Shown: piece after piece, positions 1 through 20,919 of the stretch
Layout of the letters: each line of letters opens with the position of its first letter
Numbering within the stretch: the stretch's first letter is position 1
From: Saccoglossus kowalevskii
Lineage: Eukaryota > Hemichordata > Enteropneusta > Harrimaniidae
Direction of reading: 5' to 3'
Assembly: GCF_000003605.2 (NCBI RefSeq)
Contig: NW_003122410.1
Coordinates: 896,056 to 932,532, forward strand
DNA: 36,477 nucleotides
Translations under genes and position numbers: made by a program
The notes under the pieces: generated by a model
Database searches by the model: none
What the model was told of the DNA's origin: nothing
What the model saw: only the letters and a program-made list of their open reading frames with translations

Positions 1-650
1 TAAAAGAGTCATCATCCAATAAACCTAAAGGCCATATGGGAAATAAAACGAGTCTAGTAAGTAACGCAGACCAATCTTAATTATGAAATCTTCTCATTTA
101 GATTTTGTAATACAGTCATCTTCAGATTATCGATTATAAAATCCAGTGTGTGATTAGTTGACTGTATGATGCCATGCAATGCTGAAAACACAATCACAAA
201 CTGATCTATGGGGATTCTTTGATAATTTTTTGGCTACAAGACAACTGTGAGCTGGAAAGTTTGTGGCATTTTGGAAATCTTACATACTACTTCATATGTT
301 CAGAGCTTCCAATAAAAATATTGGTGATAATACAGTTTGAGCCAGTATAATATGAAAATAGCTACTGATACATAGCATATTTTATTGAAAATGTCAGCAT
401 TACAAGAATATACAGCATAGCAGAGTTTTGGGTTGTTTTCTTGCTAGAGTCCACGATGCACAATATTGAGAAATCAACACTGGCTCACATTCAGTAATAA
501 ATCAACTAGAGAACTATTAATCTGTTGATTGGTGTATATAGCAGATATACTACACCTGATATTGCTTCATGTGTGCATGCTTTGAGAGTCATATTTTTTC
601 CTCTCACAACTGGGTGTGATGTCAATGGTAAATGTGCAGAAATGTCTTAC
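1..650 (-). other. RanGAP1 intron 15 and left edge
   Basis: AT-rich sequence downstream of the last recognised RanGAP1 exon. I looked for the final exon (the human protein ends about 22 residues later) and found no convincing one. No other feature is seen. Confidence 0.6.
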
Positions 651-772
651 CTTGATAGGAAAGCGATGAGTGTAGTAGCACATACAATAGGAAAATAGTT
701 TTGCTTTACAACATGTGCCAAAGTGATTATTGTTCCTTTGATCTGGAGAAATGGTTTGATTTTATCTTCACT
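651..772 (-). CDS. RANGAP1: RanGAP1 exon 15 (residues 510-549, last exon in window)
   Basis: Opens with SEDKIK, completing the LKSE sumoylation motif, then [20 protein letters not shown] and IAFLS. This corresponds to the part of the human protein about 22 residues from its end. Acceptor AATTACAG, donor TCAAG|GTAAGA, phase 2, so at least one more exon follows to the left. Confidence 0.92.
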
Positions 773-3700
773 CTGTAATTGCAAATAACATACATAGTAG
801 AATTTGTAAAGTTGTCAAAAATCATAAAAGTAGGAATGGACTCAAAATAGAGAGCAATCCGTATAAATTATTGAACACATTTAAACTAATCCAAGGTTAA
901 TTTAAAGTCTTTTCTTCATGCTGCCTTGTCAGATTTATCCAACTTTTCTGAATTGTAAATAGTCTAATTTATTGCTGTGATTGATCAATAAGAGAAGGTG
1001 TAAATAATCCACATTACTTTACCTTAAGAAGTCCCAAATAAACTAATACGCTATTTACTATTTCTTCTGGTCTAAGATCACTGCAATACGCTTTACTCAT
1101 AATAGCATCTAGACAAAAAATAACAAATTATTTTTGACGAACCCAATCATTATCAAAAACTGATTATGGTTTTACTATAAAGTAGCCTGTCAAGCTTAAT
1201 ATTCTATACAAAAATGTGTCACAAGACAAGAATCGTACATAGCAAATTGGCTCATACGGGCAGCAATAAAATGTTGGTACCCCTATTGGCTAAGACAGAC
1301 AGCTGTAAGATGTTCAGTCCCCAATTAGATAATAGACGTATATCGATGAATCACCTGAACATTGGTAGACAGCATTGGTAACATTCTCATTCTCTAAGTC
1401 CATGACTGATGACACTTTGAAGAACATCTTCACGATACTGTCTGAATTTTCCACTTTCTATGAGATGAGAAGTAATGATTAATTAAGTATTAAGTCTTAG
1501 CATATTCTGAATGGTACACCTCTGATACGGACATATTCATTTCTAGTTCAGTAAATGAAACTGACAATATACAAACTATTTAAAAATCTTTGAATAGAAA
1601 ATGTTATAATGTAGCAAATTAAAAATTGTGTTTGTTTGGAATAAAATTTAATAAAAAGTATTATAGAAAAAAATATGTACAACGTACAAACTAAACATTA
1701 CTGTTATGTTCAAAAGCATATATAAATGATGATATAAAGATATACTTGCCCCAAGTTCATCAACAAACAGCTGTGATCTGTTGCTACCTAATGCAAGTAA
1801 CTTATCAGATGAGGGAGACTGGAGGAAGTCACCAATAGTAACAGTAGCCTAAGCAACAGCATCAGTAGAAAAAAAGGTTCATTAGCAGATTGTCATTATT
1901 ATGAAGGTGGATTGAACGGATCTGAAGATTATACATCATTTTCTTTCATTACTATGGGTTCATATTATTACGATACAATGCAGAAATATCTTTTCATAAA
2001 CAAAAAGTCTGAACATTTTTGGGGGGGGGGGGAAATGTTTATCCAAACATTCCAAAGCATTAATATTTAATATAGCGTGATGATCTTTCTATGGAGATGG
2101 AATATATGCCCGTGGCAAACAGGCCAGGCCTGCCATTCTTAAACCTAGGTTCTCCCATCACACTCATTAAAAACGTGATGTAATTCCCATGTAGGATCTG
2201 TACTCAGGACTCGCTAATGATGGGTGTAACTATAATGCATTGTGGGTAAAAAAGGAGATTTAGTTTTGGAATTCAATGTTTTATCTACACCCATTATGTT
2301 TACAAGTCTGGATTTCCAGCACTTATGACAGAACAAAAACTATTTCTGAAAGTAGGAGAAGAATTTAAAAATTCAGGTCTAAAATGATTCAGAAAACTGA
2401 AATTAAAACAATGAATAATTAAAAATATTCCTGTTTCTGGTCATTGTCCGTCAAAAAGTGCATGTCACAGATTTTCTTTGATTATTTTCCAAAAAATACA
2501 TTTTTTATGAAAAATAAAAATTAAATTATTGATCATCTTATGTCATAATTATATCATTGTTAGTTTATCAAAACAATGTGCAATTTCCAGGGTGGAAGCA
2601 GGGGTATTTGTGAAGGATTCACTGACTTTCAGTTTAGTGGATATATGCGAGCTAAAATTATACTATCCATTATTGTAGAACATGATTTAGCACAGCACCC
2701 ATCAAACTTAACAGTATGCGCTCCAAAACAAAATAACTTTGAAACAGGTAATGCATTGTGGGCTTTAGATTACGGTGGGAATTATACTTGAATATGCTGT
2801 CATAGCAATTGAAGATTAAGGCTATAAATTTTTTAAAATAAATAAAATAAGTGTACATACATATGACACAATGTGTGAAATTGTACATGATGGAGCGAGA
2901 AACATCAAGAGATATGGGTACACATGTGCAGATTTCTCTCGCCAAAGTCGTGTTCAGATATATTATAATTTGCTATACTATTTGAGAACTTTTATTCATG
3001 TCATATTTCATACGGGACCACAAGATTAATATTATTCCTAAATGGACCTTGATTAAGCAAATCTTCATCAATATCTCCAAAAAATATACATGTCTAAATA
3101 TACATGGCTTCACAAGGATGATAAACATTTCAAGAGTTCACAAAAATTACAACAGATATTTAAACCATCATACTTTGCCATTTTACATATGAAGACTGGT
3201 ACTGTATTTGATAGGGTGTTTAAATTATACACATGTGATCATATGATAATTCATTGTAGTTAAGTGGAGAATGCTCCATGATACAAATAATCTCTGCATC
3301 TCCACAGGGAACCCAGGAACTAGAACTAAATATTTTTCTCTGCTTGTTAAATCCACACCCTCAATGCACATACCTCTATGTACTATATTGTCATTGCTCA
3401 TATTTAAATATGAATGAATTGAAAATTAATTAAATTATCATCAGTATATAAGGTTATTACAAAGATACCTCAAAGTATGCACGAAGACAGTACAGCGGCA
3501 GTATCGACGGACGCGCAGCGGAGGTCGATGCGACATTGTACTGTCTGAGTGCATACTTTGAGGTATCTTCGTAATGACCTCATTATTATACATCTTTTCC
3601 TACCAAAGATACATCATGGTAATGCCGACATCCAAAAAGTTTAGAACAGAATCAGTGAACTTCTTTGTATGGAGTCCGGTCAAATCCTGGTGGCAGCCAT

Positions 3701-6700
3701 GTTTGTTTTTATTATTATAGGACGCTTACGCGCGTAATTATTCCATATTTGGAATTCGCATTTCCTAATATAGTAGTATGAAAATACCCCATAAAATACC
3801 GCAAAAATTACGGCACGCTGTAACTTATAGCGTTACGGTGACAGATGTATAATAATAATATATTCTATATTCTATCCTAATGAAAGCATATTTTATAATC
3901 AATCTGTGATCATGTCTCAATATGTATAAATAAAACACATGAATAAAATTGATAAAATTGTTTGTTTATTGACAACATGATTTCATTAAACGGCAAACAA
4001 CACAAGTGTCTAACATCTAATAAACCTATCAATAACACTTGTATATATTCACTGGCTGCCTGTACATAAATATTGCAACACTTCACTGAGAAACCTGGGT
4101 TTAGAAAATAAACATTTTTTTTTGTAGAAATATATACAATAAAATTTAGATGTTGCATCACAACAAATAAATATACAACTGAATTATATTTGATGATGTT
4201 AAAAGGAAAGGTTCCTATCTGCTGTTTTCCAGTTATACATTGTTTCCATTGAAAACTATGGCAAGCACTTCTCCCATCAAGTTTAAATGTACAATGTATA
4301 TCTAAATTCAAAATTTAAGTTCAAATGTATATGTATGGAACTATGACTAACAAATGTATACACGTTTCATAAATCACAGAAAAACTGTACATGCATTCAC
4401 CACAAAACAGGAAATCTACAAAAATAGCTGCTTCTATTAAAATTGTCAAAAATTACATATTTACAGGACAGGATATAAACCATTAAAATGCTAAAAAGTT
4501 TTAAGATAAATTAAAATAAGTCAGTAAAATCGTTAAGCCAGAAACTATGAAATTGAAACATAAAGTACTCATGAATTTCATAAAAAAGTACAACTCAGTG
4601 AATATACAGATCATCTGAGACTGAAAATTCCACTCTTCATGCAAGAGTACAAGTATCAGAAACAAACTTGCATGTATTGGATCAAAATGCATGAATTATA
4701 TTTGTGAAAAACTTAAAACCTAGATTTATGTACATTGACAAGTAGTTGTCACTACCTATAATCAATTTCCTTTCAGACGTACAGTTTAGTGAAAAAGCTT
4801 AAAACCTGGATTCAATTTGATAAGATATTGGGCAATCGCTACTTTTAAGGGAAACTCGTAGTATTATTTGTAATACTTTCACGTCGCAAGTTGCTCTACA
4901 AAGTACATTGTAATTTATTGTAAAGAAGAAACTTGCACCACAAAAATTTCCTATATCACAATCTTCTAAAATCTTATATGAAGGCACAGTTAAAAAGCAG
5001 AAAAATATGTTGATGATAAAAAGTAATATTTGTGGACTTTAATACTGCCGTTTTAAAAACACAACATGTTGAAAAGACATTAAAATGTTTTTATATTTAC
5101 AACTATTTTCTCCTTGATGTGTTTTGACAACAGTAAAATAGCCAAAATATGAGCACGCAAATAGATAAAAAAAAAAAAAAAGTACGCAAAAGAGTCCTTC
5201 AACTGCAAATATCTCTCTCTGTCGGTTGTACAATGTATCATAGTTTTAGTTTATCCAAAGCATCTGCCAGGTCTTCTGTTGATTTCTGTAAAAGTCATAC
5301 CAAGAAAGACTAACTTCAGTCAATAGAATTTACTTTTCATTTTTATGTACAGACAAATACATTGTCAAAACTAGTACCCGTAATGAAAGAAATCCTTAAC
5401 GCTGAGCTGGCAAACACAAAACTCCTCGTTTTGTTCTTCAGTAAAAGAGATGGTGCTTTCTTGCCAAGAAAGACAATTGTTCAAATTTCTCGTTTGTTTT
5501 ATAAAAACTACTTTTCAAGAAACAACTCATTTTAGGATACAAAACCAGCTGACAATACAGTGTTCCAAGTCATGCCATCTATTATTGAAATGTATGTGAA
5601 ATAAATAAGGGACAGAAATTTTGTTCACATCGTCTGTTCTAATCCGTCAATAAATCACTTAAAATAAAGTCTAAATGACAAGCGAATACAAAGTGCTGAT
5701 ATTACCGATATTGTTTAAACCGATCTACATCATTTTCAAGAAACAGATGCTTTGTTGCCGAGGACATGGCTTGTAGGAAAAGTATATTACCAGAACAAGT
5801 TCAATTTGGGCTACAGGACTTTGTATAAATGAAGTAATATTGAATGTGGGGTATAATGTATGCACAGTACAGAGTATATTGAGACATGATCACAGATTGC
5901 ATGCAGGCAAGAATTGTGGCATGAATATAGATGGATTATCACTTGTTTTGGTTATCACAAGGTTCCTAACATTTCATCAAAATTTCTCTAATGGTTTAAC
6001 AGCAATTATTGTAACTTGTTATGGTAATCCTTGATGTATGCTGTTGCATCAAGCAATGTGGATTTAACAATGGTTACTACACATACTTACTCCATATCGT
6101 ATTTATCCTTGTACTAAACATACTGCGCAGTTGACTACACTTGATAGCAGTTACAGAATTAAATTTATTTCCAGTTGTGTAAAATTAATTCACTTCATAA
6201 TTATTAAAGATGCAATACGGACAAAAAAAAAATATTTTTTATTATTGTTGTTCAATACTTTAATACTGTTGACTAAATCACAGTCATTTTTTTATTTCAA
6301 CTAAAAAATGTGAACACCCAATAGTATTTGTAAGAAAAAGCAAAACCCCCTTATATGCAGAGGAAGTGAATGATACTGTGGAATACTTTATTTTCGCTTG
6401 GAATTAATTTTCGCTATTTTCGCTGAAGGAATGATTCAGTGAAAATATAATCCAGCGAATATACCTTTTTTCCTATCTTTTACATTCAACTCACTAAAAA
6501 ATCAGTGAAAATAAATTCCATACAACACACCTAAAAAGTCTTTTCAGCGAAAATTAATTCCAGTGAAAATAAAGTATTTTACAGTATTGAACATACCAAA
6601 AGAGCCAGTGCATATGTGTATCAGAGAAATTTATTATGTTATGTGCTATAAGAAAACTGTTTTCAGTTCATGATAAATCATAGTCCAATGTTTCACAGTA

Positions 6701-9700
6701 TCAAACAATAATACTACAAATGAAATGTTCTTCTCCATATTGCATCTTTAAAATTGAAATTTATTAAAACTATGGTAATTACCTTGTCATCTTGACTTCT
6801 TGGTGTAATCGCCGTACCTTGAATTTGTAACGCAGGATCTTCTGAAACGTCACCTTCTACCTCCTCTTTCACTTCTGATACTTCTTCTTCCTCCTCCTCT
6901 GCCTCATCATTACCATCTTCATCTTCACTGTCGCCTTCATCATCACTATAGTAATGACATAAAAGAGTGAATTTTTTTCCATTTGTGAATTTCTTATAAT
7001 GCCACAGGGTGATTTTTTATTGCCATCAAGTTTTGAGTTTTGTAGGTCAAATTTTTCTGTTAAGCGTGACCATGTTTGTCACATTTGAAAAGTTGCTTGA
7101 CAGGAAACACACTACTTTCCCCCCATGTGCAGGGAGAGTCAAAGATGTTTTTTATGACACTAGAGATAGTTCACCATTATTAGCAGTAACTAAGGAAACT
7201 ATTTTACAACTAGAATAGTAGTTGGCAGCAAGTCAAGATTCAATCTATCAAAGAGGGCAGTATTGATAATATTACAATTCATACAAGCTTTACTTACCTA
7301 AAAGAACCAAGCTTGTCTGTTATGCCAACAGATTCGAAAATCTCATTAATTGAATCTATCCCTTCTTCTCCAAGGCCATTACCTACATTAGAAAACAAAA
7401 ATAATGTGTACTGTAAATGTTTTAATTTGGCAAAACAAGAATATTTAGGAAATTTTTTCGGCATGAACTCTAAATAGAGTTCTTATGGAATGACTAAATT
7501 ATTGTGTTGCAAACTACATCCAATAGTCTTGCGTATTCCAGGAATGCCTTACTGATGGAATATGTTTGATGGATTTAACTAGATCATACAATTGAATCAC
7601 TCATATATCATATTACCAATACTCAATATCACAGCAGAAAAAAATAAGTGGTCACCAACTGGATTTTGAGATATAGTAGATTATGACGCAATGTTTATAT
7701 TGTCTGCCATGACGACAGGTGAATAGTATAGAATAGAGGACGAACCACTCTGAAAAGCAAGACACAGTAATGCCTTTAATTTATTTCACAGGATTAGCAA
7801 GCTAACAAAGCTGCCCTCGTTTCTATAGATATTATAACTAAAACTACTGTGATGGGGCAAGGTTTGTCGAGTCCCAGGAGCTGCTTTGAAGCAATAACCT
7901 ATGTTTGTTCTGTTTTTAATGCATGATTACATACATAATGTGGGCAAAGAGAGCAAATAGAGGTCCATCTACAGGTGAGGTACACATATATAGAAGTCAA
8001 CGATAACATTTTTGATAACAAAATGACAGATATATTTGCTAAAAATACTGAGCATTGAAGATATTATCACGAAATGAACAAATCTGTCAAAAGTCTACCC
8101 TAGGTACATTTACTTATATACATGTACTAAGTATCAAAGCAATTGAGCTAGTACCGGATTCTGCCGTAAATTCGCCCATCCAAAAAATCTCCCTGGGCGG
8201 TTTCACGGCTGGTGGGCACTTATTTGGGGGTAAAATTTCCAAAAAATGATCATCAAATATTTTTTTGGGACTTCTATTTTCATTCAAAAATTAACCAATG
8301 CTGACTTTCCACGCCGGCAGTTGGACCACCCAAGACAAGAGAAACTATTGCAGAAGCTAAACTAAAAATTGATACATTTTTACTAGTTGCTACAGTTACT
8401 GTTCTATGCACAGCAGGTTTCCCCAGACACCTGAATTAAAAAGTAGACCGCCTAAAATTTCACTATAATATCACCCAGTGTCATCTTTCTCAGTAAAAAA
8501 AACAAAAACAAAATCTGAAAATAAAACATGGTAATTGGTATATTCTTAGCAGATGTGGCGGTCCTGAAAAGGGTCGTTTGGTTTGAACATGTCATGAAAC
8601 ATGTTGTGCAATATTGACATCAAAGCGACAATTGCGTAGGATATCTTGAATTCTTGGAATCACCTGATCAATGGCAAGAAACCAAATGTTGCAAAAGTGC
8701 ATAACACCGACCCTCGGTGAGTGTGAGAACGCGTTTGTCTTTGGTTTAAGATAGTAACAACCATCAGCAGATAAATTCAAGTTCATTATTTTCACCAATA
8801 ATCTTGCTGCATCACGTTTTAAACTTGCCACTTTCTTTCCACGAAAAGTCACGGCGACTGCGTCTTTATCGTGAAGATTCTGGCGATCTCGGCAAAGGAG
8901 ATGTGAAGTACCCAATGGTAGTGAGCTACTGTAATGTGGCATTCCAACAGCAAGTACATTGCGAATAACAACTTTCTTCTTTCCCATGATGTAATGAGTG
9001 ATCAATCACTGACGACAGAATGTAATATTTTTTTCAGTTGACGACTCTTTATATGCAATTTGACCAATGCAAATCCAGTGTTCTAAAATACTAGTATCGA
9101 CAGGCACAAAACAACTCCACATATTTTTTATTATGGCTATGGCGAGACTTTGATTCGTCTTTGTTTTGCTTTAACTGGCCGTGAACTGACAAGAAAGTCT
9201 GTTTGTATTTTCCACATCCGTAAGCGCACACCACTATACTAATAAATATTTGAATGCGCACGCTATTGTTAGATTTAATGGTCTGCATTCCACACCATCA
9301 TTGTATAGTGAATAAAAGGATGACAAGTGATCAAGACGGTTGCAGTGACAGTGAGTACGAGTGACAGGAACACATTTTTATTTAACTTGACTTCGAAATT
9401 TTTGATTTTTTTTGGAAACAGAGAAGTAACTGTAGAGGTGAATAGTGCATTTAATGAAATAGAAGTCTGTCATGGCAGTGGGCAGTTATGTTTGTGATTT
9501 TTAATGCAGCTGAGGGACCATGCTTGGTTTAATTTGTAGGTTATTATTTTTAAAATTACGGGCACGGAGAATGATTTTGTGAACCACTAGATTTCAAAGT
9601 CCCGGATAATTCAAAGTAACGGGCCACCTATGACGTTATTAAATGCGGGACATCATTCGACTTTACGATTTCATTTGGACGTGATTAAGAAATTGCAGGT

Positions 9701-12700
9701 ACATTGAATTTAAGTGAGTGAACCCGTTTTGTATTACTAGGAAATAAAGGCTAAATATTGAATGCTATATACAAATCATTTTCGAAAGCACAATGGACGA
9801 ATGAGACTGTGATATTTTATTTTTATTCTGGCATAGTTTAATTGAACCATGAATTGATTTTGGGACAGAGGTAGAAAGACTAACAACAAATACAGGCTTT
9901 TCCGTGGGACAAATGAAAACCTTGTATATTAATTTGTAGACAGTTGTAAATCGCTGATTTCCAATAAAGTTGAGTGTTTTGTATATGGCTAGCATATCTT
10001 GTTACAAAATTCAAAGGAAGAAAAAATAATATATGACTTTACCAAAAACGAGTGGCATGTCATAATTATTGTGTTCGCAATGATACAAAGAGATTTTCAC
10101 ACGTGTAATCTGCGGCATTTTCTTTGCCAATGTCTGGCAATCACTGTGACTCCAACCCAAAGCTAAATTTAGCTAAAATTTGCTAAATATGGCTCGCACC
10201 CTTTACAAAAATTTGCCATAAATTACACAGCTCATACAAGGCAGAGTCACTTTTAGTCTATGTTCAAAACCGTGACCGTGACATGCCGACTCAGAAGTAA
10301 AAATTGAACACCATTGAAGACAAACTTCAAGTTGTTGCTGTTTGGAGAGACTGTGGCATCTTGACGTACATATATTGATAGAAAAAGACTGAGGGAGTGG
10401 TCAAAACGCGAAAGAGAATTTGTTACCGTAATCACGGTGACAAGAAGCATTGTAGAAATATGGAAGTTTTTTTTTTTTTTTTGTGATGACACCATTTACT
10501 GCCTTAGTACATATTTTGTGGTATTTTCGTAATAACATTATTATTGTACATCTTTTCTGCACAGCTAGAAATTAACTACGCATAATCCCTAGTTTGAAAA
10601 TTCATTCAAAAGCGATTGATCGCACAGGAACATCTGTCTGTTCTCCAAGAGATGACATATGGCATAGACGAAACACCCGTGTACATCAACATGGTTGCAG
10701 ATACCACTATCGACTTTATCGGCAACAAAACCATTGAGGCAGCAAACTGTGGTGCCACAAAAGCACGTCCATGAGTGGACAATATTTGAAGACGGCCGTC
10801 ATTCTGAAAGGCCTGAAAAACATTCCCAAAGTCACTGTTCCAAGTAACATTTTCGTAATGCTTGCAAATAAAGAAAGCAACACCTGTTAACTCATAGACA
10901 CGTGGGTAAATAAATTTTTCCGTGCACGAGCCGGGGCAACGCCACATAAAGGGGGCGATCTCCTGTCCTTGTTGGAAAGGTACAACACATCGGTCAAATA
11001 TATCCCACCCAAAACAACAAGCTACCTGCAGCCAGTAGATGTAATTTGCAACAGACCATTTAAGGCGGCGATGAGATGACAGTGCCGGGGGGTTGGTTTG
11101 CGACCATCTTGGGAAACAGTCTTTGCTGTTGTAAGTGCCGCCGTTGAAGAAATGAAAACTGCTGTAAATACCGGTACCAAGCGAGCATTTGAGTGTGGTG
11201 GGATAGCCACAAATGGCGGAGTCATTGGGAACAAGTCACTGAACAGCAACCATCAATAGGTGTTAGCTGGGGTGTTTGCTTGAGTCCTTAGAATGTAAAT
11301 GTACGAGTGCGTCAAGAAGATTATAACAATTGCCCGCCCACATGAACAAGGCATTCTCCCTGATCTGATCATAAAAAGCATACATCGGTTAAAAATAACA
11401 AATAGCAGCTCTCCAGCAGAGTTTCCCCACGCATTGGTGTATCACTTCCTGCAGTTTATTGTTTAAAAACCCCAACTGCCGTTTGACAGCCCTGGGCGAA
11501 TTTCCAGCAGAATCCAGTAGTTTTCAAGAAAATAGCATTTTTTACCAAAAATGTTCACCAAAAATAGAAAATTGAAGATATCAACATGAAATGAACAAAT
11601 CGGACAGAGGTTAACTCAAAGTACCTGTATACCAAGTATCAAAACAGTTGAGCTTGAAGTTTTCAAGAAGAAGATGGAAATGTAATTATTGAAGGATGAA
11701 CGAAAGAACAATCGCCTACATAAACAGCTCTGCTGTCATATATGGTGATAACTGAGCAAATAAGACTTATTTTTGTCCAAAGAGGCACATTTGTATTTAA
11801 GTATATTTTCATTATTCTGAATTTGTTTTTTGAGACCTTGCTGAAAAATCCTTATGAAAAACAATGTATGATAACAAACTCTTACCATTTAAGTCAAGTT
11901 TTTCTAAATTCTTTTTACTCTGCACACTTTTAGCTACTGCCAGGGCTGCATCTTTTTTGATCTCACCAAACGATAAATTCAATTCCTGTTGAAAAATATT
12001 AATTAGTCATTGTAAAACCACTAATACATATTTTCTGAAATCATATGCCATTCTATAAATAAGGATACAGCACATAAAAATGCAACTAAATGGACACTGA
12101 TCATGTAAAATAGCTATGGTACACTCATATGAAATCAAACAATAACCACGTACAAGAAATAGAACAGCAGCTGCAACTCATCTTGAAAACAAAAGTTATT
12201 GTTTTTTGGAAACTATGCTAGAGGGCGCTATAAACACCAAATCTCTATAGAGTCTGCATTTGAGATACAATTTCTAATTTATTTATACAGATGATTGATT
12301 TCATGAGGGGATACAATAGCACAAACAAACAGGTGTAAAAAACATATTTATATTACTAAGTATAGGTTGAGTTCAATAAGATTGGTCATCTGGAAAAAAT
12401 TTGGGGCAAAGAAAAATAGTAAAACTAATACTCACCTTGAGTTTAGGAACTCCATGCTCTAAGGCATTTGCTATTGCCTGTGCTCCAGCAGATCTAACTA
12501 AACAATCACCAAAGTTTATGACTTCTAATTCAGGTAGGTTAGCAAACGCCTGAAAGAACACAATCAAATCTCATTAACGAGTAAACCATACCAATTGTGG
12601 TCTTATCCCTTGTATTAAGAAATTTCCACAAATTATGCATTAATCTATGTTAATATATTGTACTATAGTACAACCAATGATATTAGTGCACATGAACAAA

Positions 12701-15700
12701 GTCACTAATAATGGGATAGGTAATTCTTCTGAAGGTTAGTCTCTCAGAAGTAGTAAACAGCATCTATCATTGTTTATTTGTGACTGGAAAATTGACTGAT
12801 ATTTCAAGACTGAATACAAACAGACAATGAGTTATGCAAAGTGGGACGATGTATCAGAGCATCATAAATCTTTCAAAAGCAAAATCCATGAAAACTGAAT
12901 AATAGTAATATTTGATATGCGTATATAGGGATAACATTACATGATAAACTATTAAGTCAAATAAAGTTATGAAATTGACAACCATCTTGACATTCAACTT
13001 ACAGAGGCCATTGATTTAGCTCCTGTTCCTGTAAATGTATTATCATTCAAATTTATTATCTGTAAAAACAAATAAAAAAAATTATTTAACTAATGAACAT
13101 TACCAATCAGCATCACACAGTAGGTTATTTTTTTTATCTTACCTAAATCTATTGATGTTAAATTAATTTTATTTTCTGCAAGTCCTAAATTGAATTGTAA
13201 ACCAAGAGTATACAACACTTCATACTGTAAAACCATTTATTTTCACTGGATTTTAACATCACTATTCTGATGAGTTCATGTTCACAAATTTGGCAGCTGA
13301 CAAGTTTTTTTTTCATGTTCCCATGGATTTTATTTATTTTAAACAGATTTTGTTTATCAACGAAAAAAGCACAGTAAATAATTACTAGCCTTACAGTATT
13401 TATTTCTGCTGATTTTAATACTCACTTCGGCATAAATAAATTACATGTGAAAATAAAATCTTCTACTGTAATACATGGGTTATATGATAGTTGTTGTATC
13501 TCAACCAGAGCAGTTGCTGACAACCAAGCACATTGCTGATAAAACATTATACTCGCCTTCAGTTTGTCGTTCTTTGCAAACGAATCTGCCAGTGCTGATA
13601 TTCCCTGGTGATTTATACCATTCTGTGGCATTGCTACGTGTTCGAGTGTTCCTATAGTCTGAAAAAAATAATTTTGGGATTATATGGATAACAAAATTGT
13701 ATGAAACTAATAATTTCAAAACATCTGTAGTAGTTCAAAACCAGGCTGAATGCAACTAATCAAAAATAAAATTTGGCAACAATTTCACACATTTTGAATT
13801 CCAGAATACTGTAAAATACATTGAAATAGCTACATGACATTTTATCGAATTTGACTGAATGCAATTATCTCATTGTGATAGTATAGCACCAATATTGTTA
13901 CCTTGAATGCTAATGCCAAGGCAGTGGCACCATCATTTTCTAATCGATTCCTTCCAGCGATAAAAAGCTGCAGTGATAATGGTTTCCCTGCAGCTGAACT
14001 TTTTTTATGACATTCAATTAATGCTGCTGATAAAATCTGTGAATTAGAAAATAAATACACACATTAGTTTTCAGTACATCTTGGACAGGTTTTGCTTTCT
14101 TAATAATTTGGTTGGTGATGAGAATGCAATGGCAAACAGGTCAGAGTACCCAACACCAAACTGCCAGTGGTCAGTCAACAACAGAATTCTTAAGAGCAAT
14201 ATAAAATAAATTGAATTCTTGTGAATTATCTCACTGAAAGTTTTTCAGGTGATAAATCTGAGAAGGTATTTTAACCTTTAGATCACCAGACTTTCTCGCC
14301 CAAATTTGTATGCAAATTTTTCTTGTATTCTTCAATATTTCAGGAAATGAACCCTAATTTTGGAGCCAACAGACAAAATTTGAGTCAATATTCAGTTTTT
14401 ACTCAAAAACTTTGGCTATTTTTGTCCCAATCTTCTGAAGGAAAGTGCAGACTATAAACATTATTTTGTGAATTGTTGATGAAAAGAGATGATGGTGAAA
14501 AGGATAAAGCATCTTGCTGTAGACATTATGGCATTTTGAGCTGAAATCAAATTTTACACTACTGAGCATGTTATTGCATATATATGCAATGCATTCTGGA
14601 AGAAAAGTTATTGCATAACAATGGACTACTGTTTTATTTTTCCCTTTTGGTATTCTGATGACATGTACCCATAAATGAAAGTATGACAAACATGACATTA
14701 TCTTGAATTCGGTTTGAACCTCCTTAAAGGTATTTTAATTAATTAAAGCAGAGGAGATGTCACCTGCGGATGTGTCAGATGGCCATAGCGTGTCATTGTT
14801 TACAAACAAGTGTCTACCCATGAACCTTTGCGTTTTTAGCGCGTGTTGTTATCATAGCTTTGGACTCAATTGCAGCATGTGTGCGGGTGACGACCCTCTC
14901 GCTTTAATAGAACAAAGAAACTTGAAGTGTAATGGGCTGGTCATGTATATTGCAAAGCTAGGATCATCAATGCAGAATATCTCGAAAGAGTTAGGATATG
15001 AACATTCTGTTTTATCAATCACAAGTGTTGTTTTTCTGCTGTAATAAACCAAAATTCCATCATCATAATAAACTTACTTTTCCCCCACCTATACCGAGTC
15101 CATTATTATTAAATCTAAGTTCTCTTATGGAATAACATGCTTCGCTTTGCAGCAGCTCTGTACATGCTCGCACTCCGTCTGCACCAAATGCATTATCACT
15201 TAAATCAAGTTCCACTAAATGGGCTTCAGCTGTGATAATGGCAGCTCCTAGGCTTTCCTGAAAGAAAAGAAATTTAACACAAAATATTATTATATGCAAT
15301 AAAATTGTTTGTATTTTTGTCTCACTTTTCTGTTAAGTTTGATCTAACAAAAAAACACAGACCTGGAGGTGTTGTAAGATGACATCACAACTAACTATTA
15401 AAATTATTCAGCCTATCATAGCACTTCTTACATGAAAACACACTAAAAGATGCATTTTAATTGGCCATTGAAAATTTATGAACTTGACTGAATGAATCCA
15501 GTTGTTTGGTAGTTGACATGCACAACATGACTATCAATAGTCCATTTTCTAATGACCGAATTTCCATGTTATGTGTGAAATAAAAAAACAAGAAAAAAAC
15601 AAAGGAGATAGCATCAGCACAGTGCACAAAATTCAACAAATGTTAAATGGATTTTTTTGAGTATTTCCATGTTAAATATTGTGCTATATAAATTTGATAG

Positions 15701-18700
15701 GCAATTCTCTGAAACATCGGCATTTCAACATTGAACTTTAAAATAAAAAAAAAAAAAAAAAAACCAAATCATTTGATTTTTGCAGCAGGATGCTCAATTC
15801 GCACCTTTCACACATTATGCGAGACAAACAGATAGCCATCTATTGAGTTATGCAAACTGAGCCAAACCAATTACATTAATCTCATCTACCAAATAATACA
15901 TACATACCAGTGCTACAGGAATCTCTGATCTCAGTCGTCCAGTAAACATGTCACTCCATCTTGCTCTCTGAATAAAATAATTTAAGACCAGGAATCACAT
16001 TACTGTAAATTGATTTAAATTCACTAGACGCAAATTTTACAAATTGTGTGAGTAAGAGAAAACTGCAACGTTCTGCACCAAGACAGGTGAGTCCCATCCA
16101 GTGTTGTAATAATTTGGCGAAATGACATCCATATCAAATAACCAACATTTCTAGCTGCCAACAGTTTATAATATTTAAAACAATGAAAACTCTACAAAAT
16201 TAATTTTTTTAAGTTTATGGCTACACCTGATATTATCAAAAGAACTGCCAATTAAAACAGGGTTCCCCCCGGGCATTATAGAACAGGGGTTCCCAACTGA
16301 TAAATTTGAGATAAACAATAGAGACAATCAAGCATAACAATGAACCAATAGAGATAATTAACAAACTATATTGTTATGTAAATTAGTCGATACTCAATTA
16401 TATTTTCTGAGGATAACATCGATTCCCATAATGCATCAACATGGCAGTAATCCCATGATGCATCACAAGCTATCATTACATTAGTAATGAAACCCTACAA
16501 CATGGCGGTACTCCCATGATGCATCTCAAGATATCACTACTTTGGTAATGAAACCCTACAACATGGCAGTACTCCCATGATGCATCTCAAGCTATCTTTA
16601 CATTAATAATGAAACCCTACAACATGGCAGTACACCCATGATGCATCACAAGATATCACTACTTTAGTAATGAAGCCCTACGACAAGGCAGTACTCCCAT
16701 GGTGCATCACAAGATATCACTACTTTAGTAATGAAGCCCTACGACAAGGCAGTACTCCCATGGTGCATCTCAAGATATCAATACTTAGTAATGAAGCCCT
16801 ACGACAAGGCAGTACTCCCATGATGCATCACAAGATATCACTACTTTAGTATTTAAGCCCTACAACATGGCAGTACTCCCATGGTGCATCACAAGATATC
16901 ACTACATTAGTAATGAAACCCTACAACATGGTAGTACTCCCATGGTGCATCAAAATATATCAATACTTTAGTAATGAAGCCCTACAACAAGGCAGTACTC
17001 CCATGATGCATCACAAGATATCACTACTTTAGTAATGAAGCCCTACGACAAGGCAGTACTCCCATGGTGCATCTCAAGATATAAATACTTAGTAATGAAG
17101 CCCTACGACAAGGCAGTACTCCCATGATGCATCACAAGATATCACTACTTTAGTATTTAAGCCCTACAACATGGCAGTACTCCCATGATGCATCACAAGA
17201 TATCACTACTTTAGTAATGAAACCCTACAACATGGTAGTACTCCCATGATGCATCACAAGATATCACTACATTAGTAATGAAACCCTACAACATGGCAGT
17301 ACTCCCATGATGCATCTCAAGATATCACTACTTTAATGAAACCCTACAACATGGCAGTACTCCCATGATGCATCACAAGCTATCACTACTTTAGTAATGA
17401 AACCCTACAACATGGCAGTACTCCCATGATGCATAACAAGCTAACACTACATTAGTACTGAAGCCCTACAACATGGCAGTACTCCCATGATGCATCTCAA
17501 GCTATCACTACTTTAGTAATGAAACCCTACAACATGGCAGTACTCCCATGGTGCATCATAAGATATCAGTACTTTAGTAATGAAACCATACAACATGGCA
17601 GTACTCCCATGATGCATCACAAGCTATCACTATATTAGTAATGAAGCCCTACAACATGGCAGTACTCCCATGATGCATCACAAGCTATCACTACATTAGT
17701 AATGAAACCCTACAACATGGTGGTACTCCCATGATGCATCACAAGATATCACTACTTTAGTAATGAAACCCTACAACATGGCGGTACTCCCATGATGCAT
17801 CACAAGATATCACTACTTTAGTAATGAAACCCTACAACATGGCAGTAAACCCATGATGCATCTCAAGATATCACTACATTAGTAATGAAACCCTACAACA
17901 TGGCAGTACTCCCATGATGCATCTCAAGCTATCACTACTTTAGTAATGAAACCCTACAACATGGCAGTACTCCCATGATGCATCACAAGCTATCACTACA
18001 TTAGTAATGAAACCCTACAACATGGCAGTACTCCCATGGTGCATCTCAAGCTATCACTACATTAATAATGAAACCCTACAACCTGGCAGTACTCCCATGA
18101 TGCATCACAAGCTATCACTACTTTAGTAATGAAACCCTACAACATGGCAGTACTCCCATGATGCATCACAAGCTATCAATACTTTAGTAATGAAACCCTA
18201 CAACATGGCAGTACTCCCATGGTGCATCACAAGATATCACTACATTAGTAATGAAACCCTACAACATGGTGGTACTCCCATGATGCATCACAAGATATCA
18301 CTACTTTAGTATTTAAGCCCTATAACACGGCAGTACTCCCATGATGCATCACAAGATATCACTACTTTAGTAATGAAACCCTACAACATGGCAGTACTCC
18401 CATGATGCATCACAAGATATCACTACTTTAGTAATGAAGCCCTACAACATGGCAGTACTCCCATGGTGCATCAGAAGTTTCAATGAACAAAGCTTTCTGG
18501 AAGAAGAACAGGAGCAACTTCACAATATTGTTCAATCATGCATGCTAGTACTTACCTCAAATTCTGCTTTATTTTCTAGAGCTTTAGCAATAGCTTTGGC
18601 GGCTTCTACACCAACCGTGTTACCTCCTAACCGTAATGATTGCACATCTTTGGATTCATTTATGGTTTTGACAATTTCGGCAGCTGGTGAGTGGAACACA

Positions 18701-19965
18701 AGTTGACATACATATATGCATAAAAAAACATATATTGTACAAATACATGTCAGTGTAGCATTACAATTATTACATGCTTTTTTTTCCACTTGTAATTTGT
18801 TTAAATAATGACGAGGATGCAATGACATGTGCATTGGGCCTTAACACAAGACCACTGAAGATTTTTGAATATACATCAAAATTCATTTCAATATGAATAA
18901 TTTATAACCAGTCTAGAACAATGGCTACATGTTCTTATATCAAACAAACCAACGTGTTTACTTGCAGAAAATAAAAAAGCGTAGAATAAACTGCCATTGA
19001 CCATGGACGTACTAGAGATGGACGGTGCACGGTGTTTACTCGCTTTGATGTATGTGCGTTGCCGCCACCAGATTACTGTTGATCCAGATCATGTCTGCAT
19101 AATTTCCTGTCCACAGGAAACGATCACGAACACGCCCGATTATAGCTCAGTTCATCTTCGTTTTGTCCCGAACGCCCCCGACGATCTGTTTACGATCGTC
19201 AAGAGAAAACAAAATGGCAACGAACAGGCACCAGAGAAAGTTTGGTTTTGGTTCGGATTTTGTAGATCCCGACATTTTAGAACTAGATGATAATGATTTT
19301 GATATTGAAGACATTGAAACTGTCGACTCAACCGTCCCTGAAGAGGACGAACAGCAGTATTGTTTCTCGCGAGAGCCCATCATGAACATGAAAGCTAATG
19401 TTAAAGAAGTCCATTTTTAACATCAAATTACGGCGGCCGAACTTTTCCGAACATTTTGAGCTTTGTGCCATCTGGAAATTTGACTCGAATTGAACATCGG
19501 ATAAAAAAATCGTCATCCGCTCACACCGGGTTTACTGGCAATATTAAATTAAAATTGTTAACAAATGCTGAAGATCGGTACAAACATGCTCGTAAACTTG
19601 CCTAGAACATACGGATTTGCGTTAAACCTTTGATTTACAACGTAACATTGCACCAGCTCATGGACATGGTCTGTATTTTTTTTTTTACCCAATATAATAT
19701 AAAATTTAAAATTCGAATCTTGTGAAAAATCAAAACTAAGATCGGGCGGCAACTCAGTCAAGATGAAAGTACGTCTGCCTATTCATGAATTTAAGATGAG
19801 TACAATAGAATGCGTCTTATCAGGTGTGAATCACCGTGCAGCGTCCATCTCTAGTACGTCCATGCATTGACAGTGGAATATACATTTCTGCTTTGTGTAT
19901 GTATTTCCGGTCCAGACACCTGTTTTAGTTTTTGTTCATATTTGTAAATCATAAGATCATAAATA

Positions 19966-20012
<47 letters not shown>

Positions 20013-20205
20013 CGATCACCATTGTAATGGGTCCATAGGGAATATATATATTACACATTGGTCAAACTTTGAGTTCAACATGCTACGTACCATCTTCGGC
20101 TGTGTCAAGTTTCAGGCCCTTTCCGGCGAATGACACTTCGTTTACTTGTTCAAGTTTTGCCTTGGCCAACAAATCGGCAACATCGGGTTCGCTTTTCACT
20201 GCCAT
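651..20205 (-). CDS. RANGAP1: RanGAP1, Ran GTPase-activating protein 1 (15 joined exons, 3' end outside window)
   Basis: RanGAP1 stimulates GTP hydrolysis by Ran in the cytoplasm and at nuclear pores, which keeps the RanGTP gradient that drives nuclear transport. Fifteen exons join in one frame (about 549 residues; human protein 587): 20205-20091, 18683-18556, 15967-15908, 15257-15078, 14036-13902, 13658-13557, 13059-13003, 12549-12436, 11985-11886, 7382-7298, 6945-6783, 1848-1750, 1457-1355, 1108-1023, 772-651. Residues 1-358 form the leucine-rich-repeat GAP domain. It includes FTGR (Arg92, position of the conserved arginine of yeast Rna1p) and the NNGLG motif (152-156, region of the catalytic asparagine). 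Residues 359-413 are acidic. Residues 414-549 are the C-terminal domain with the SUMO site LKSE (Lys509). An in-frame stop lies 24 bases upstream of the ATG. The final short exon was not found. Assignment is very secure; exon joins rest on phase and homology. Confidence 0.97.
1023..1108 (-). CDS. RANGAP1: RanGAP1 exon 14 (residues 481-509)
   Basis: Encodes [20 protein letters not shown] and then VLVYLGLLK, matching DALMQKAF...LLVHMGLLK of human RanGAP1. The last codon is the SUMO-acceptor lysine. Acceptor GTCTAG, donor CTTAAG|GTAAAG. Confidence 0.93.
1355..1457 (-). CDS. RANGAP1: RanGAP1 exon 13 (residues 447-480)
   Basis: Encodes [20 protein letters not shown] and then [13 protein letters not shown]. 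The FFKVSSV core matches FLKVSSVF of human RanGAP1. Acceptor CTCATAG, donor TTCAG|GTGATT, phase 1 at the 3' end. Confidence 0.92.
1750..1848 (-). CDS. RANGAP1: RanGAP1 exon 12 (residues 414-446), GC donor
   Basis: Begins the C-terminal domain: [20 protein letters not shown] and then [13 protein letters not shown], matching the STFLAFPSPEKLLRLG block of human RanGAP1. Acceptor GCTTAG. The donor is GGG|GCAAGT, a second GC-type site; the next exon continues in phase 0. Confidence 0.9.
3451..3580. repeat. Foldback element, 44-bp arms with GC-rich loop
   Basis: Left arm 3451-3494 and right arm 3537-3580 are inverted copies with about 4 mismatches (core GATACCTCAAAGTATGCAC). The 42-base loop is GC- and CpG-rich, unlike the surrounding AT-rich intron. 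A related right-arm sequence occurs at 10505-10557, which marks it as a dispersed element. Confidence 0.85.
3581..3857. repeat. Possible element with ATTATTATACATC inverted ends
   Basis: ATTATTATACATCT beginning about 3583 and its reverse complement AGATGTATAATAAT ending near 3857 bracket a CpG-rich stretch. It could be the body of the same element as the adjacent foldback; the true boundaries are uncertain. Confidence 0.4.
5238..5285 (-). CDS. RANGAP1: Candidate alternative terminal exon of RanGAP1 (NES-like tail)
   Basis: After a good acceptor (pyrimidine-rich, TTTTACAG) the frame compatible with exon 11 (phase 0) reads [15 protein letters not shown] and then stop. The tail fits the leucine-rich export consensus L-x3-L-x2-L-x-L. 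Using this exon would give a protein of about 428 residues with the GAP domain and acidic tail but no SUMO/RanBP2 domain, as in yeast RanGAPs. Candidate poly(A) signals (AATAAA on the minus strand) lie at 4914-4919 and 3965-3970. This is inferred from splice signals and phase only; no transcript evidence is available. Confidence 0.55.
   Translation of the reverse strand, partial: KSTEDLADALDKLKL
6374..6586. mobile_element. MITE family A, copy 1 (213 bp, TA-flanked)
   Basis: Begins TACTGTGGAATACTTTATTT and ends with the inverted GTATTTTACAGTA. The termini are long imperfect inverted repeats built on TTTTCGCTGGAATTAATTTT. No reading frame. A copy of identical length lies at 36199-36411, and degenerate copies at 28697, 31313 and 13223. 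Confidence 0.88.
6783..6945 (-). CDS. RANGAP1: RanGAP1 exon 11 (residues 359-413, acidic stretch)
   Basis: Encodes the acidic stretch ([20 protein letters not shown] and on), then a tail ending [11 protein letters not shown]. RanGAPs from yeast to vertebrates carry such a stretch after the repeats. Donor GACAAG|GTAATT, phase 0. It could be spliced to the exon at 1848 or to the short terminal exon at 5285. Confidence 0.94.
6946..7297 (-). other. RanGAP1 intron 10
   Basis: 352-bp intron between the acidic-stretch exon and the last repeat exon. No element or RNA gene recognised. Confidence 0.8.
7298..7382 (-). CDS. RANGAP1: RanGAP1 exon 10 (residues 331-358)
   Basis: Completes the last repeat with [20 protein letters not shown] and then KLGSF, equivalent to GNTLGEEGCEQLQEVLEG of human RanGAP1. 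Acceptor AATGTAG, donor TTTAG|GTAAGT, phase 2 at the 3' end. Confidence 0.93.
8003..8150 (+). repeat. Tandem repeat copy 1, left of the transposon
   Basis: Contains ATTGAAGATAT, GAAATGAACAAATC and AAGTATCAAAGCAATTGAGC in the same order and spacing as the copy at 11531-11655. The copies differ at many bases, so the duplication is old. Confidence 0.75.
8592..9005 (-). CDS. HIRAN-domain-like protein, 137 aa, inside the pogo-type element
   Basis: The 137-residue frame carries the HIRAN pattern: [20 protein letters not shown], then [20 protein letters not shown] and a later YYLKP. In the family the motif reads roughly G..hY...L..G..L...RE..N.hD..AVAV...G..VG.lpR. HIRAN domains bind 3' ends of single-stranded DNA in Rad5/HLTF and also occur alone in many invertebrate repeat-borne genes. 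The frame starts at [11 protein letters not shown] and is uninterrupted, while the transposase on the other strand is broken. It could be an accessory gene of the element or a captured fragment. Function is not established. Confidence 0.6.
   Translation of the reverse strand: MITHYIMGKKKVVIRNVLAVGMPHYSSSLPLGTSHLLCRDRQNLHDKDAVAVTFRGKKVASLKRDAARLLVKIMNLNLSADGCYYLKPKTNAFSHSPRVGVMHFCNIWFLAIDQVIPRIQDILRNCRFDVNIAQHVS
10283..11259 (+). pseudogene. Broken pogo/Tigger-type (DDE_1) transposase relic
   Basis: Pieces in different frames follow the order of a pogo-type transposase. [19 protein letters not shown] and, after a frameshift, [16 protein letters not shown] give the N-terminal DNA-binding helix-turn-helix (10300-10422). 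[20 protein letters not shown] (10661 on) holds the first catalytic Asp. [11 protein letters not shown] and [12 protein letters not shown] follow, then [18 protein letters not shown] (11019 on), then [11 protein letters not shown] and a C-terminal tail. The segment with the second catalytic Asp seems deleted near 10940. Stops and frameshifts show it is dead. Confidence 0.8.
10505..10557 (+). repeat. Dispersed repeat related to the foldback at 3451-3580
   Basis: Resembles 3546-3598 at most positions (GGTATYTTCGTAATRAC and ATTATTRTACATCTTTTC). It lies between the helix-turn-helix and catalytic parts of the transposase relic, so it probably inserted into the element. Confidence 0.6.
11531..11655 (+). 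repeat. Tandem repeat copy 2, right of the transposon
   Basis: Carries ATTGAAGATATCAACATGAA, GAACAAATC and CCAAGTATCAAAACAGTTGA in parallel with 8003-8150. The sequence just right of the transposon (AGTTTTCAAGAA) also follows GAGCTTGA at the end of this copy, which reveals the unoccupied target. Confidence 0.75.
11886..11985 (-). CDS. RANGAP1: RanGAP1 exon 9 (residues 298-330)
   Basis: Encodes [20 protein letters not shown] and then NLEKLDLNG, the next-to-last leucine-rich repeat. Acceptor TTTCAACAG, donor AATG|GTAAGA, phase 1 at the 3' end. Confidence 0.95.
11986..12435 (-). other. RanGAP1 intron 8
   Basis: 450-bp AT-rich intron. No element recognised. Confidence 0.8.
12436..12549 (-). CDS. 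RANGAP1: RanGAP1 exon 8 (residues 260-297)
   Basis: Encodes [20 protein letters not shown] and then [18 protein letters not shown], nearly identical to the [12 protein letters not shown] block of animal RanGAP1. Acceptor TTTCAG, donor CTCAAG|GTGAGT. Confidence 0.97.
12550..13002 (-). other. RanGAP1 intron 7
   Basis: 453-bp AT-rich intron. No element recognised. Confidence 0.8.
13003..13059 (-). CDS. RANGAP1: RanGAP1 exon 7 (residues 241-259)
   Basis: Short exon encoding [19 protein letters not shown], the leucine-rich-repeat segment equivalent to [14 protein letters not shown] in vertebrate RanGAP1. Acceptor TTTTTACAG, donor GCCTCT|GTAAGT, phase 0 at both ends. Confidence 0.92.
13060..13556 (-). 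other. RanGAP1 intron 6, GC-AG type
   Basis: 497-bp intron that starts GCGAGT (13556 leftward) and ends TTTTTACAG. It holds a degenerate MITE family A copy (13223-13398). Confidence 0.8.
13223..13398. mobile_element. MITE family A, degenerate copy
   Basis: Starts TACTGTAAAACCATTTATTT and TTCACTGG, like family A, and ends in one of two inverted ACAGTA sequences (13371-13376 or 13393-13398). The interior has diverged. Confidence 0.5.
13557..13658 (-). CDS. RANGAP1: RanGAP1 exon 6 (residues 207-240), GC donor
   Basis: Encodes [20 protein letters not shown] and continues to FAKNDKLK, matching the MPQNGIN repeat of RanGAP1. The homologous continuation (IINLNDNTF in exon 7) fixes the boundary at AAG|GCGAGT. 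The donor therefore begins with GC, not GT. Confidence 0.94.
13807..13885 (+). mobile_element. MITE family B, truncated copy
   Basis: TACTGTAAAATACATTGAAA followed by TAGCTACATGACATTTTA aligns with 29986-30100, with an internal deletion before TATCTCATTGTGA. It ends about 15 bp from the donor of RanGAP1 exon 5. Confidence 0.7.
13902..14036 (-). CDS. RANGAP1: RanGAP1 exon 5 (residues 162-206)
   Basis: Encodes [20 protein letters not shown] and then [17 protein letters not shown], a hallmark RanGAP1 stretch. Acceptor TTCACAG, donor TTCAAG|GTAACA, phase 0. A truncated TACTGTA-type MITE lies directly downstream in the intron. Confidence 0.96.
14037..15077 (-). other. RanGAP1 intron 4
   Basis: 1041-bp intron. 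Several short open frames on both strands show no recognisable protein and no codon pattern; nothing else seen. Confidence 0.75.
15078..15257 (-). CDS. RANGAP1: RanGAP1 exon 4 (residues 102-161)
   Basis: Two leucine-rich repeats: [16 protein letters not shown], then the [16 protein letters not shown] segment that carries the asparagine-rich motif near the catalytic centre of RanGAPs. Donor GGAAAA|GTAAGT, acceptor with CAG; phase 0 at both ends. Confidence 0.96.
15258..15907 (-). other. RanGAP1 intron 3
   Basis: 650-bp intron with an A run of about 19 bases (15745-15763). No element with clear ends found. Confidence 0.75.
15908..15967 (-). CDS. RANGAP1: RanGAP1 exon 3 (residues 82-101)
   Basis: Sixty-base exon encoding [20 protein letters not shown]. 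The FTGR arginine (Arg92) aligns with Arg74 of fission yeast Rna1p. Acceptor TTCAG, donor CTG|GTATGT, phase 0 at both ends. Confidence 0.95.
15968..18555 (-). other. RanGAP1 intron 2 (2.6 kb)
   Basis: About 80 % of this intron is the 61-bp minisatellite (16427-18475). The left 450 bp shows no other feature. Confidence 0.85.
16427..18475 (+). repeat. Minisatellite, about 34 units of 61 bp
   Basis: The unit runs CCCATGATGCATCACAAGAT, ATCACTACTTTAGTAATGAA, ACCCTACAACATGGCAGTAC, T. The CCCATG start recurs from 16452 to 18460, giving 33 periods with a mean of 60.9 bp. Most units differ by only a few bases (CCATGG for CATGAT, GACAAGG for AACATGG, TATTTAAG for TAATGAAA). Each unit has the palindromes ATGCAT, GATATC (or GCTATC) and AGTACT. 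Stops in all frames make coding unlikely. Confidence 0.98.
18556..18683 (-). CDS. RANGAP1: RanGAP1 exon 2 (residues 39-81)
   Basis: First leucine-rich repeat, including [20 protein letters not shown], which is strongly conserved in RanGAP1. Acceptor CACCAG|CT, donor TTGAG|GTAAGT. The 61-bp minisatellite begins only about 80 bp inside the following intron. Confidence 0.95.
19002..19864 (+). mobile_element. Non-autonomous DNA transposon, 863 bp, 33-bp TIRs, 7-bp target duplication
   Basis: The left terminal repeat starts CATGGACGTACTAGAGATGG (19002-19034). Its reverse complement ends the element (19832-19864) with one mismatch in 33. CATTGAC flanks both sides exactly (18995-19001 and 19865-19871). 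The interior is more GC- and CpG-rich than the intron. It encodes no full transposase, only a short acidic frame. The CA start, 30-bp-class repeats and 7-8 bp duplication are compatible with the P-element superfamily, but this is a guess. Confidence 0.93.
19163..19420 (+). CDS. Short acidic ORF in the 863-bp transposon (85 aa)
   Basis: Frame with an internal Met at 19214 in good context ([20 protein letters not shown]). It has a basic start followed by an acidic, Asp/Glu-rich middle ([15 protein letters not shown]) and a stop at 19418-19420. It may be the N-terminus of the transposase of a parent element, left in a deletion derivative. No domain recognised; it may not be expressed. Confidence 0.35.
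   Translation: MSRTPPTICLRSSRENKMATNRHQRKFGFGSDFVDPDILELDDNDFDIEDIETVDSTVPEEDEQQYCFSREPIMNMKANVKEVHF
19968..20009. repeat. TA dinucleotide microsatellite
   Basis: About 21 uninterrupted AT/TA units, roughly 80 bp from the donor of RanGAP1 exon 1. Confidence 0.97.
20091..20205 (-). CDS. RANGAP1: RanGAP1 exon 1 (residues 1-38)
   Basis: This exon encodes the N-terminus starting [20 protein letters not shown] and running to TAED, matching the animal RanGAP1 N-terminus. The ATG (20205-20203) has G at -3 and G at +4, and an in-frame TAG precedes it (20227-20229 on the plus strand). The donor is GATG|GTACGT; phase 1 at the 3' end. Confidence 0.93.
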
Positions 20206-20883: not shown

Positions 20884-20919
20884 ATGGCTGTCCCCAGCGT
20901 CTTGGGGGACTGCATCGAG
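20884..20919 (+). CDS. PLK4: PLK4 exon 1 (residues 1-12)
   Basis: Encodes [12 protein letters not shown], after which the kinase domain starts in exon 2, as in other PLK4 proteins. The ATG has A at -3 and G at +4; an in-frame TGA lies 24 bases upstream. Donor ATCGAG|GTGAGT, phase 0. Confidence 0.9.

Follow-up and report, generated by a model that had tools for sequence, protein, structure and literature searches.

The window, by which we mean the whole 36,477-nucleotide stretch of Saccoglossus kowalevskii DNA that was analyzed, carries on its minus strand a gene for RanGAP1, a key regulator of nucleocytoplasmic transport. The window lies on contig C1492 of the 572-Mb assembly (4,830 contigs) in which the genome searches were performed. 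Head to head with RanGAP1, a divergently oriented PLK4-like kinase gene extends over about positions 20890 to 36477 of the plus strand. The kinase match (28056-28349) and the Plk4_PB1 match (34871-35698) of this neighbor are both just below or below the cutoffs. Fifteen RanGAP1 coding exons were positioned by eye, and their 549-residue translation contains no internal stop:

20205-20091, minus strand: RanGAP1 exon 1
18683-18556, minus strand: exon 2
15967-15908, minus strand: exon 3
15257-15078, minus strand: exon 4
14036-13902, minus strand: exon 5
13658-13557, minus strand: exon 6
13059-13003, minus strand: exon 7
12549-12436, minus strand: exon 8
11985-11886, minus strand: exon 9
7382-7298, minus strand: exon 10
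6945-6783, minus strand: exon 11, acidic region, donor AAG/gtaatt, common to both predicted isoforms
6783..20205, minus strand: span of exons 1 to 11, 413 codons, encoding the catalytic LRR and the acidic region
1848-1750, minus strand: canonical exon 12, leading into the RanGAP1_C (SUMO) domain, with a weak acceptor and a GC donor
1457-1355, minus strand: exon 13
1108-1023, minus strand: exon 14
772-651, minus strand: exon 15

The encoded protein matches human RanGAP1 over residues 8 to 548 (E 1e-168) and S. pombe Rna1 over residues 25 to 389 (E about 1e-52). It has the LRR catalytic domain homologous to Rna1/RanGAP1 and, at residues 404 to 549, the Pfam domain RanGAP1_C (PF07834, E 1e-33). 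Furthermore, the SUMO motif LLKSEDK, encoded in canonical exons 13 to 15, aligns with the human LLKSEDK that holds the SUMO acceptor lysine. Fourteen of the 15 genome matches to the RanGAP1 protein lie at this gene, whereas the remaining one, on another contig, has 28% identity, and the RanGAP1_C profile gave a single match in the genome, at this gene. No last RanGAP1 coding exon was recognized within bases 650 to 1, and the next 10 kb beyond them are N.

Several other features were noticed along the gene. Two of the 15 placed donors are GC donors, namely those after exons 6 (13557-13555) and 12 (1750-1748), and the latter follows the exon with which the alternative ending described below would compete. 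Intron 2 contains a 61-bp tandem repeat (33.5 copies, 91% matches, window positions 16437-18477). Intron 9 harbors two open stretches on the minus strand: a 137-codon frame at 8592-9005 that matches the HIRAN domain (PF08797) above its cutoff (E 4.3e-6), possibly a transposon remnant or a nested gene, and a 209-codon stop-to-stop stretch at 10606-11235 with no Pfam match.

Intron 11 is 4,934 bases long and contains, on the minus strand, an additional acceptor, TCTTGGTATGACTTTTACAG, followed directly by AAATCA, with the junction at 5286/5285. The features around it are the following:

5286..5305, minus strand: alternative-exon acceptor, with the next upstream AG at 5311 and a branch-point-like TTGAC whose A is at 5320
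5238..5285, minus strand: coding part of the candidate alternative last exon, 15 codons plus TGA, in phase 0 after exon 11
3950..5237, minus strand: putative 3' UTR with a presumed end, containing ATTAAA at 5043 and AATAAA at 4919 and 3970

Since exons 1 to 11 total 1239 bases, that is, 413 codons, the donor after 6783 is in phase 0. The acceptor is thus in phase with exon 11, and a stop codon follows it, as in an alternative last exon. Splicing of exon 11 to 5285 would give a predicted isoform of 428 residues (413 plus 15 codons) without the SUMO/RanBP2 domain. As RanGAP1_C covers residues 404 to 549, a swap after residue 413 would occur close to where that domain begins. The original prediction had placed a tail, its stop codon, and its phase after exon 11 at 5238 to 5285, and had deduced an isoform of about 428 residues with the SUMO/RanBP2 domain swapped out; all of this was right.

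It had also called the acceptor strong. We scored it with a position matrix built from the 14 real acceptors of the gene and with a pooled model; the candidate was scored with the full model, while each real site was left out of its own model. With the position matrix, the alternative acceptor scored 5.8 and the exon 12 acceptor -2.2, the lowest value of the 14. With the pooled model, the respective scores were 3.9 and -4.0, the latter ranking 13th of 14 in a range of real acceptors from 10.2 to -4.1. The alternative acceptor is therefore nearer to exon 11 than the competing exon 12 acceptor and outscores it in both models. Scores at least as high are nevertheless reached by 19 of the 792 intronic AGs of the gene with the position matrix (8 of 221 in intron 11 alone) and by 10 of 792 with the pooled model. 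Furthermore, when introns as long as intron 11 were simulated, 585 of 600 contained at least one acceptor this good, so that such a site is by itself unsurprising in so long an intron. Strength thus holds for the acceptor when it is set among the real ones and against exon 12, but it is not exceptional among the AGs of the introns.

Among the GT donors between 5280 and 4701, only the one at 4782 scores above 4 (4.6), a value exceeded by 14 of the 15 real donors, and a terminal exon is therefore likelier here than an internal or cassette exon. Farther along the putative 3' UTR, the AATAAA at 3970 is followed by a plausible GU-rich stretch, TTCATGTGTTTTATTTAT. Since these introns contain AATAAA at 1.45 copies per kb, the hexamers in the putative 3' UTR represent no enrichment. 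A spliced copy was not found in the animal's own genome, where a 269-base query hit nothing but the gene itself, in two separate pieces. Pattern scans of viral and prokaryote contigs returned 11 and 154 matches, respectively, with no relatives among them, and Rfam gave no match at the gathering threshold. None of the seven pairs of inverted repeats in intron 11 has an arm inside the 48-base exon. An inverted repeat at 3448-3583 of the same intron, beyond the putative alternative 3' UTR, has 47-base arms that are 89% complementary and resembles a small mobile element.

The coding-likeness of the 15 codons was assessed on 7,073 intronic open windows of 15 codons, from which the neighborhood of the candidate was excluded. 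With a codon model trained on RanGAP1, only three of these windows scored as high as the tail, and when this coding score was combined with the acceptor score, the alternative site ranked first of the 792 intronic AGs. A model trained on PLK4 linkers disfavored the tail: 2,451 windows scored as high and the site fell outside the top ten, the training material being two presumed linker stretches whose coding status comes from open frames and one sub-cutoff Plk4_PB1 match. A third model, added after the PLK4 result and combining a generic amino acid composition with local synonymous usage, gave an intermediate result, with 132 windows scoring as high. The coding score therefore provides moderate support, which depends on the training set and is driven by amino acid content.

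The tail fits L-x3-L-x2-L-x-L, as had been predicted, with L6, L10, L13, and L15 at the phi-x3-phi-x2-phi-x-phi spacing of class 1a (PKI) export signals. How often would such a pattern occur by chance? Among the 417 real intronic AG tails of 8 to 40 residues, 47 had the strict spacing and 89 a wider one, and among 600 simulated introns, 174 had the former and 286 the latter behind an equally good acceptor. The loose export pattern was therefore rejected as evidence, being too common in real and simulated introns. The all-leucine pattern is rarer: the candidate is the only 1 of the 417 real intronic tails to carry it, and it was seen in 22 of 14,113 Markov tails and in 2 of 600 simulated introns. 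When the last 23 residues were searched against the PDB, the single hit (E 0.35) seemed to be a designed coiled coil.

In human RanGAP1, an N-terminal helix (Ile6, Leu9, Leu13, Thr16, and Val18) fills the export-signal pocket of Crm1, as described from cryo-EM in 2025 (PMC12246119). According to the same report, residues 1 to 18 hold GFP mainly in the cytoplasm, and conservation of the helix extends across vertebrates and invertebrates, is lower in insects, and is absent from yeasts (PMC12246119). The corresponding segment of the gene studied here is in exon 1:

20152..20196, minus strand: exon 1 codons 4 to 18, corresponding to the N-terminal Crm1 signal of human RanGAP1; of all segments, this one is most similar to the alternative tail

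Aligned without gaps to residues 4 to 18 of the same protein, the tail is identical at 9 of 15 positions (BLOSUM62 score 38), in a comparison that was post hoc, the paper and both sequences having been seen first, a point that the six-frame and whole-protein controls below answer in part. The match covers the tail exactly, from acceptor to stop, and sets V9, L13, A16, and L18 of the N terminus opposite L6, L10, L13, and L15 of the tail. None of the remaining 416 real intronic tails scored above 25 against the N-terminal helix. A score of 38 was reached by none of 20,000 Markov tails (maximum, 30), by none of 50,000 random tails on the four-leucine scaffold (maximum, 33), and by 1 of 20,000 permuted tails, or 14 of 20,000 when the leucines were fixed. 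Against the whole protein, 2 of 3,000 permuted tails equaled the score of the tail. Among all 29,008 open six-frame 15-mers of the window, the tail came second after the N terminus itself, and the third scored 24. Against the human helix itself, the tail scored 21, which is not significant (2,303 of 20,000 permutations as high), and its scores against export signals of six other proteins were 13 to 18. The likeness to the protein's own N-terminal helix is thus far beyond the controls and strengthens the predicted export role of the tail.

At the DNA level, tail and exon 1 counterpart share 24 of 45 bases and their flanks have no similarity, and a recent duplication of exon 1 was rejected as the source of the tail on these grounds. 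With no sign of a recent event, an old duplication or convergence remain. The second of these is made plausible by a match elsewhere in the Ran system. A genome search with the Ran_BP1 profile found one match, which reads as RanBP1 rather than RanBP2 (L018, positions 795-520, minus strand). The match has an acidic C terminus with KETEDVAKQLEDLTV, in register with the alternative tail of RanGAP1. We take this gene to be RanBP1 and presume that the RanBP1 export signal lies in that acidic C terminus. Aligned to KETEDVAKQLEDL of this C terminus, the tail scored 33 in the same register, a score found in 45 of 5,000 permutations. A genome search for the IR region of RanBP2 (PF12185) gave no matches, and since the positive controls were equally silent, it is uninformative on absence. 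The tail may accordingly be read either as an ancient duplicate of the N-terminal helix or as a case of convergence on the type of signal used by soluble proteins of the Ran system, and in both cases it would be an export signal. Both likenesses strengthen the export-like reading that had first been proposed for the tail.

Nuclear transport is driven by the Ran gradient, which in turn is set by where RanGAP is located. The yeast enzyme has no SUMO domain, whereas in vertebrates this domain anchors RanGAP1 at the pore; in the fly, entry of a truncated RanGAP into the nucleus leads to meiotic drive. Alternative last exons and intronic polyadenylation can alter the localization of a protein. We favor the view, with a probability of roughly 0.6, that 5238 to 5285 is part of a genuine alternative last exon and that the gene would make a soluble, Crm1-exported RanGAP1 of 428 residues beside the pore-bound form. 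In this scheme, the exon 11 donor would join the nearer acceptor at 5286, and the transcript would be cleaved at a poly(A) site within intron 11. The short product would consist of the LRR catalytic domain and the acidic region and would end in a short export signal of the Crm1 type. Missing from it would be the domain in which vertebrates have the SUMO site, the RanBP2/Ubc9 interface, and a nuclear localization signal (NLS). Use of exon 12 instead would give the pore-anchored form. The choice would most likely be decided by the 5286 acceptor together with intronic polyadenylation on one side and the weak exon 12 acceptor on the other. Because the counterpart of the N-terminal signal lies in exon 1, common to both forms, the tail would add a second signal, and the short form would be soluble and cytoplasmic, kept from the nucleus by two Crm1 signals, the N-terminal helix and the tail. 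The original prediction of a free, exported isoform is supported in part: the sequence agrees with its gene model, phase, length, domain swap, and export-like tail. It is refined in two respects: the tail would be a second signal beside that of exon 1, and the lost domain does more than anchor. Indeed, in mammals, the SUMO domain is reported to bring RanGAP1 to RanBP2 and to contain an NLS (PMC4624696), and the C-terminal domain is reported to make a second contact with Crm1 (PMC12246119).

The acceptor and the short frame could also be an accident of a 4.9-kb AT-rich intron, that is, a cryptic splice site used by no stable transcript. This explanation, which we judge rather unlikely, would account for the ease with which equally good acceptors arise in intron 11 (8 of 221 AGs) and in simulated introns (585 of 600), for the 174 of 600 simulated introns in which such an acceptor precedes a strict-spacing export pattern, and for the verdict of the PLK4-trained codon model. 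It does not account for a match to the N-terminal helix that runs from acceptor to stop, was reached by no Markov tail, and stands alone among the open 15-mers of the window.

Poison exons and termination within introns are widespread means of gene regulation, and the exon could be spliced merely to lower the amount of full-length RanGAP1, by premature termination in intron 11 or as a poison exon, the tail peptide having no role. That the nearer acceptor outscores the canonical one of exon 12 would suit such regulation. We nevertheless hold it to be improbable: the single GT donor above the cutoff between 5280 and 4701 makes an internal poison exon less likely, the truncated protein retains the catalytic LRR region, and the tail looks as if it had been selected as an export signal, judging from its matches to the N-terminal helix and to the RanBP1-like protein. 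Finally, the exon could be real and its tail an amphipathic helix for a partner other than Crm1. The tail is indeed charged and amphipathic and its Crm1 role is a predicted one, but the class 1a spacing with four leucines and the match in register to the counterpart of a Crm1-bound helix render this very improbable.

A broader proposal can also be made, which we consider possible but put forward tentatively. The animal would make two RanGAPs by choice of the 3' end, one anchored at the pore through SUMO and one soluble, and the soluble one would be placed by a C-terminal copy of its own N-terminal Crm1 signal, whether this arose by intragenic duplication or by convergence within the Ran system. 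It would be a natural and harmless counterpart of Sd-RanGAP and would amount to a switch between yeast-like and vertebrate-like placement of RanGAP in one animal. This would show how cells could tune the balance of pore-bound and soluble RanGAP, and it would provide an unanchored RanGAP form with an export signal of its own. What anchoring contributes could then be tested directly by preventing the use of one 3' end. In the open-access full-text literature, which formed the scope of the search and did not include subscription papers or automated genome annotations, we recognized no description of such a RanGAP1 isoform.

Like the tail, the N-terminal signal described for human RanGAP1 is an amphipathic helix with phi-x3-phi-x2-phi-x-phi spacing (PMC12246119). 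However, the tail is C-terminal, lies in an alternative exon, and has leucine at all four positions; at the phi3 position, the human helix has threonine, the N terminus of this gene alanine, and the tail leucine. S. pombe Rna1, as described in PMC4624696, resembles the 428-residue form in having the LRR and acidic regions without a SUMO domain, but in yeast this layout is the regular form and not an alternative product. The layout of the short form would also be that of RanBP1, with a functional domain, an acidic tail, and an export signal, the acidic C terminus at L018 indeed containing a class-1a-like stretch. RanBP1 is, however, a different protein, and the stretch lies inside its acidic tail rather than at the end.

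The Sd-RanGAP of the Drosophila Segregation Distorter system is, like the short form, a truncated RanGAP. It is reported to be enzymatically active and, having lost one of two export signals, to be nuclear and to disrupt transport (PMC7263674). In contrast to this mutant, truncation here would bring a new export-like tail, and a truncated RanGAP with such a replacement signal would escape nuclear entry of the Sd-RanGAP type. More generally, RanGAP1 of S. kowalevskii would resemble those genes with alternative last exons in which a nearer terminal exon competes with distal exons that encode a targeting domain.
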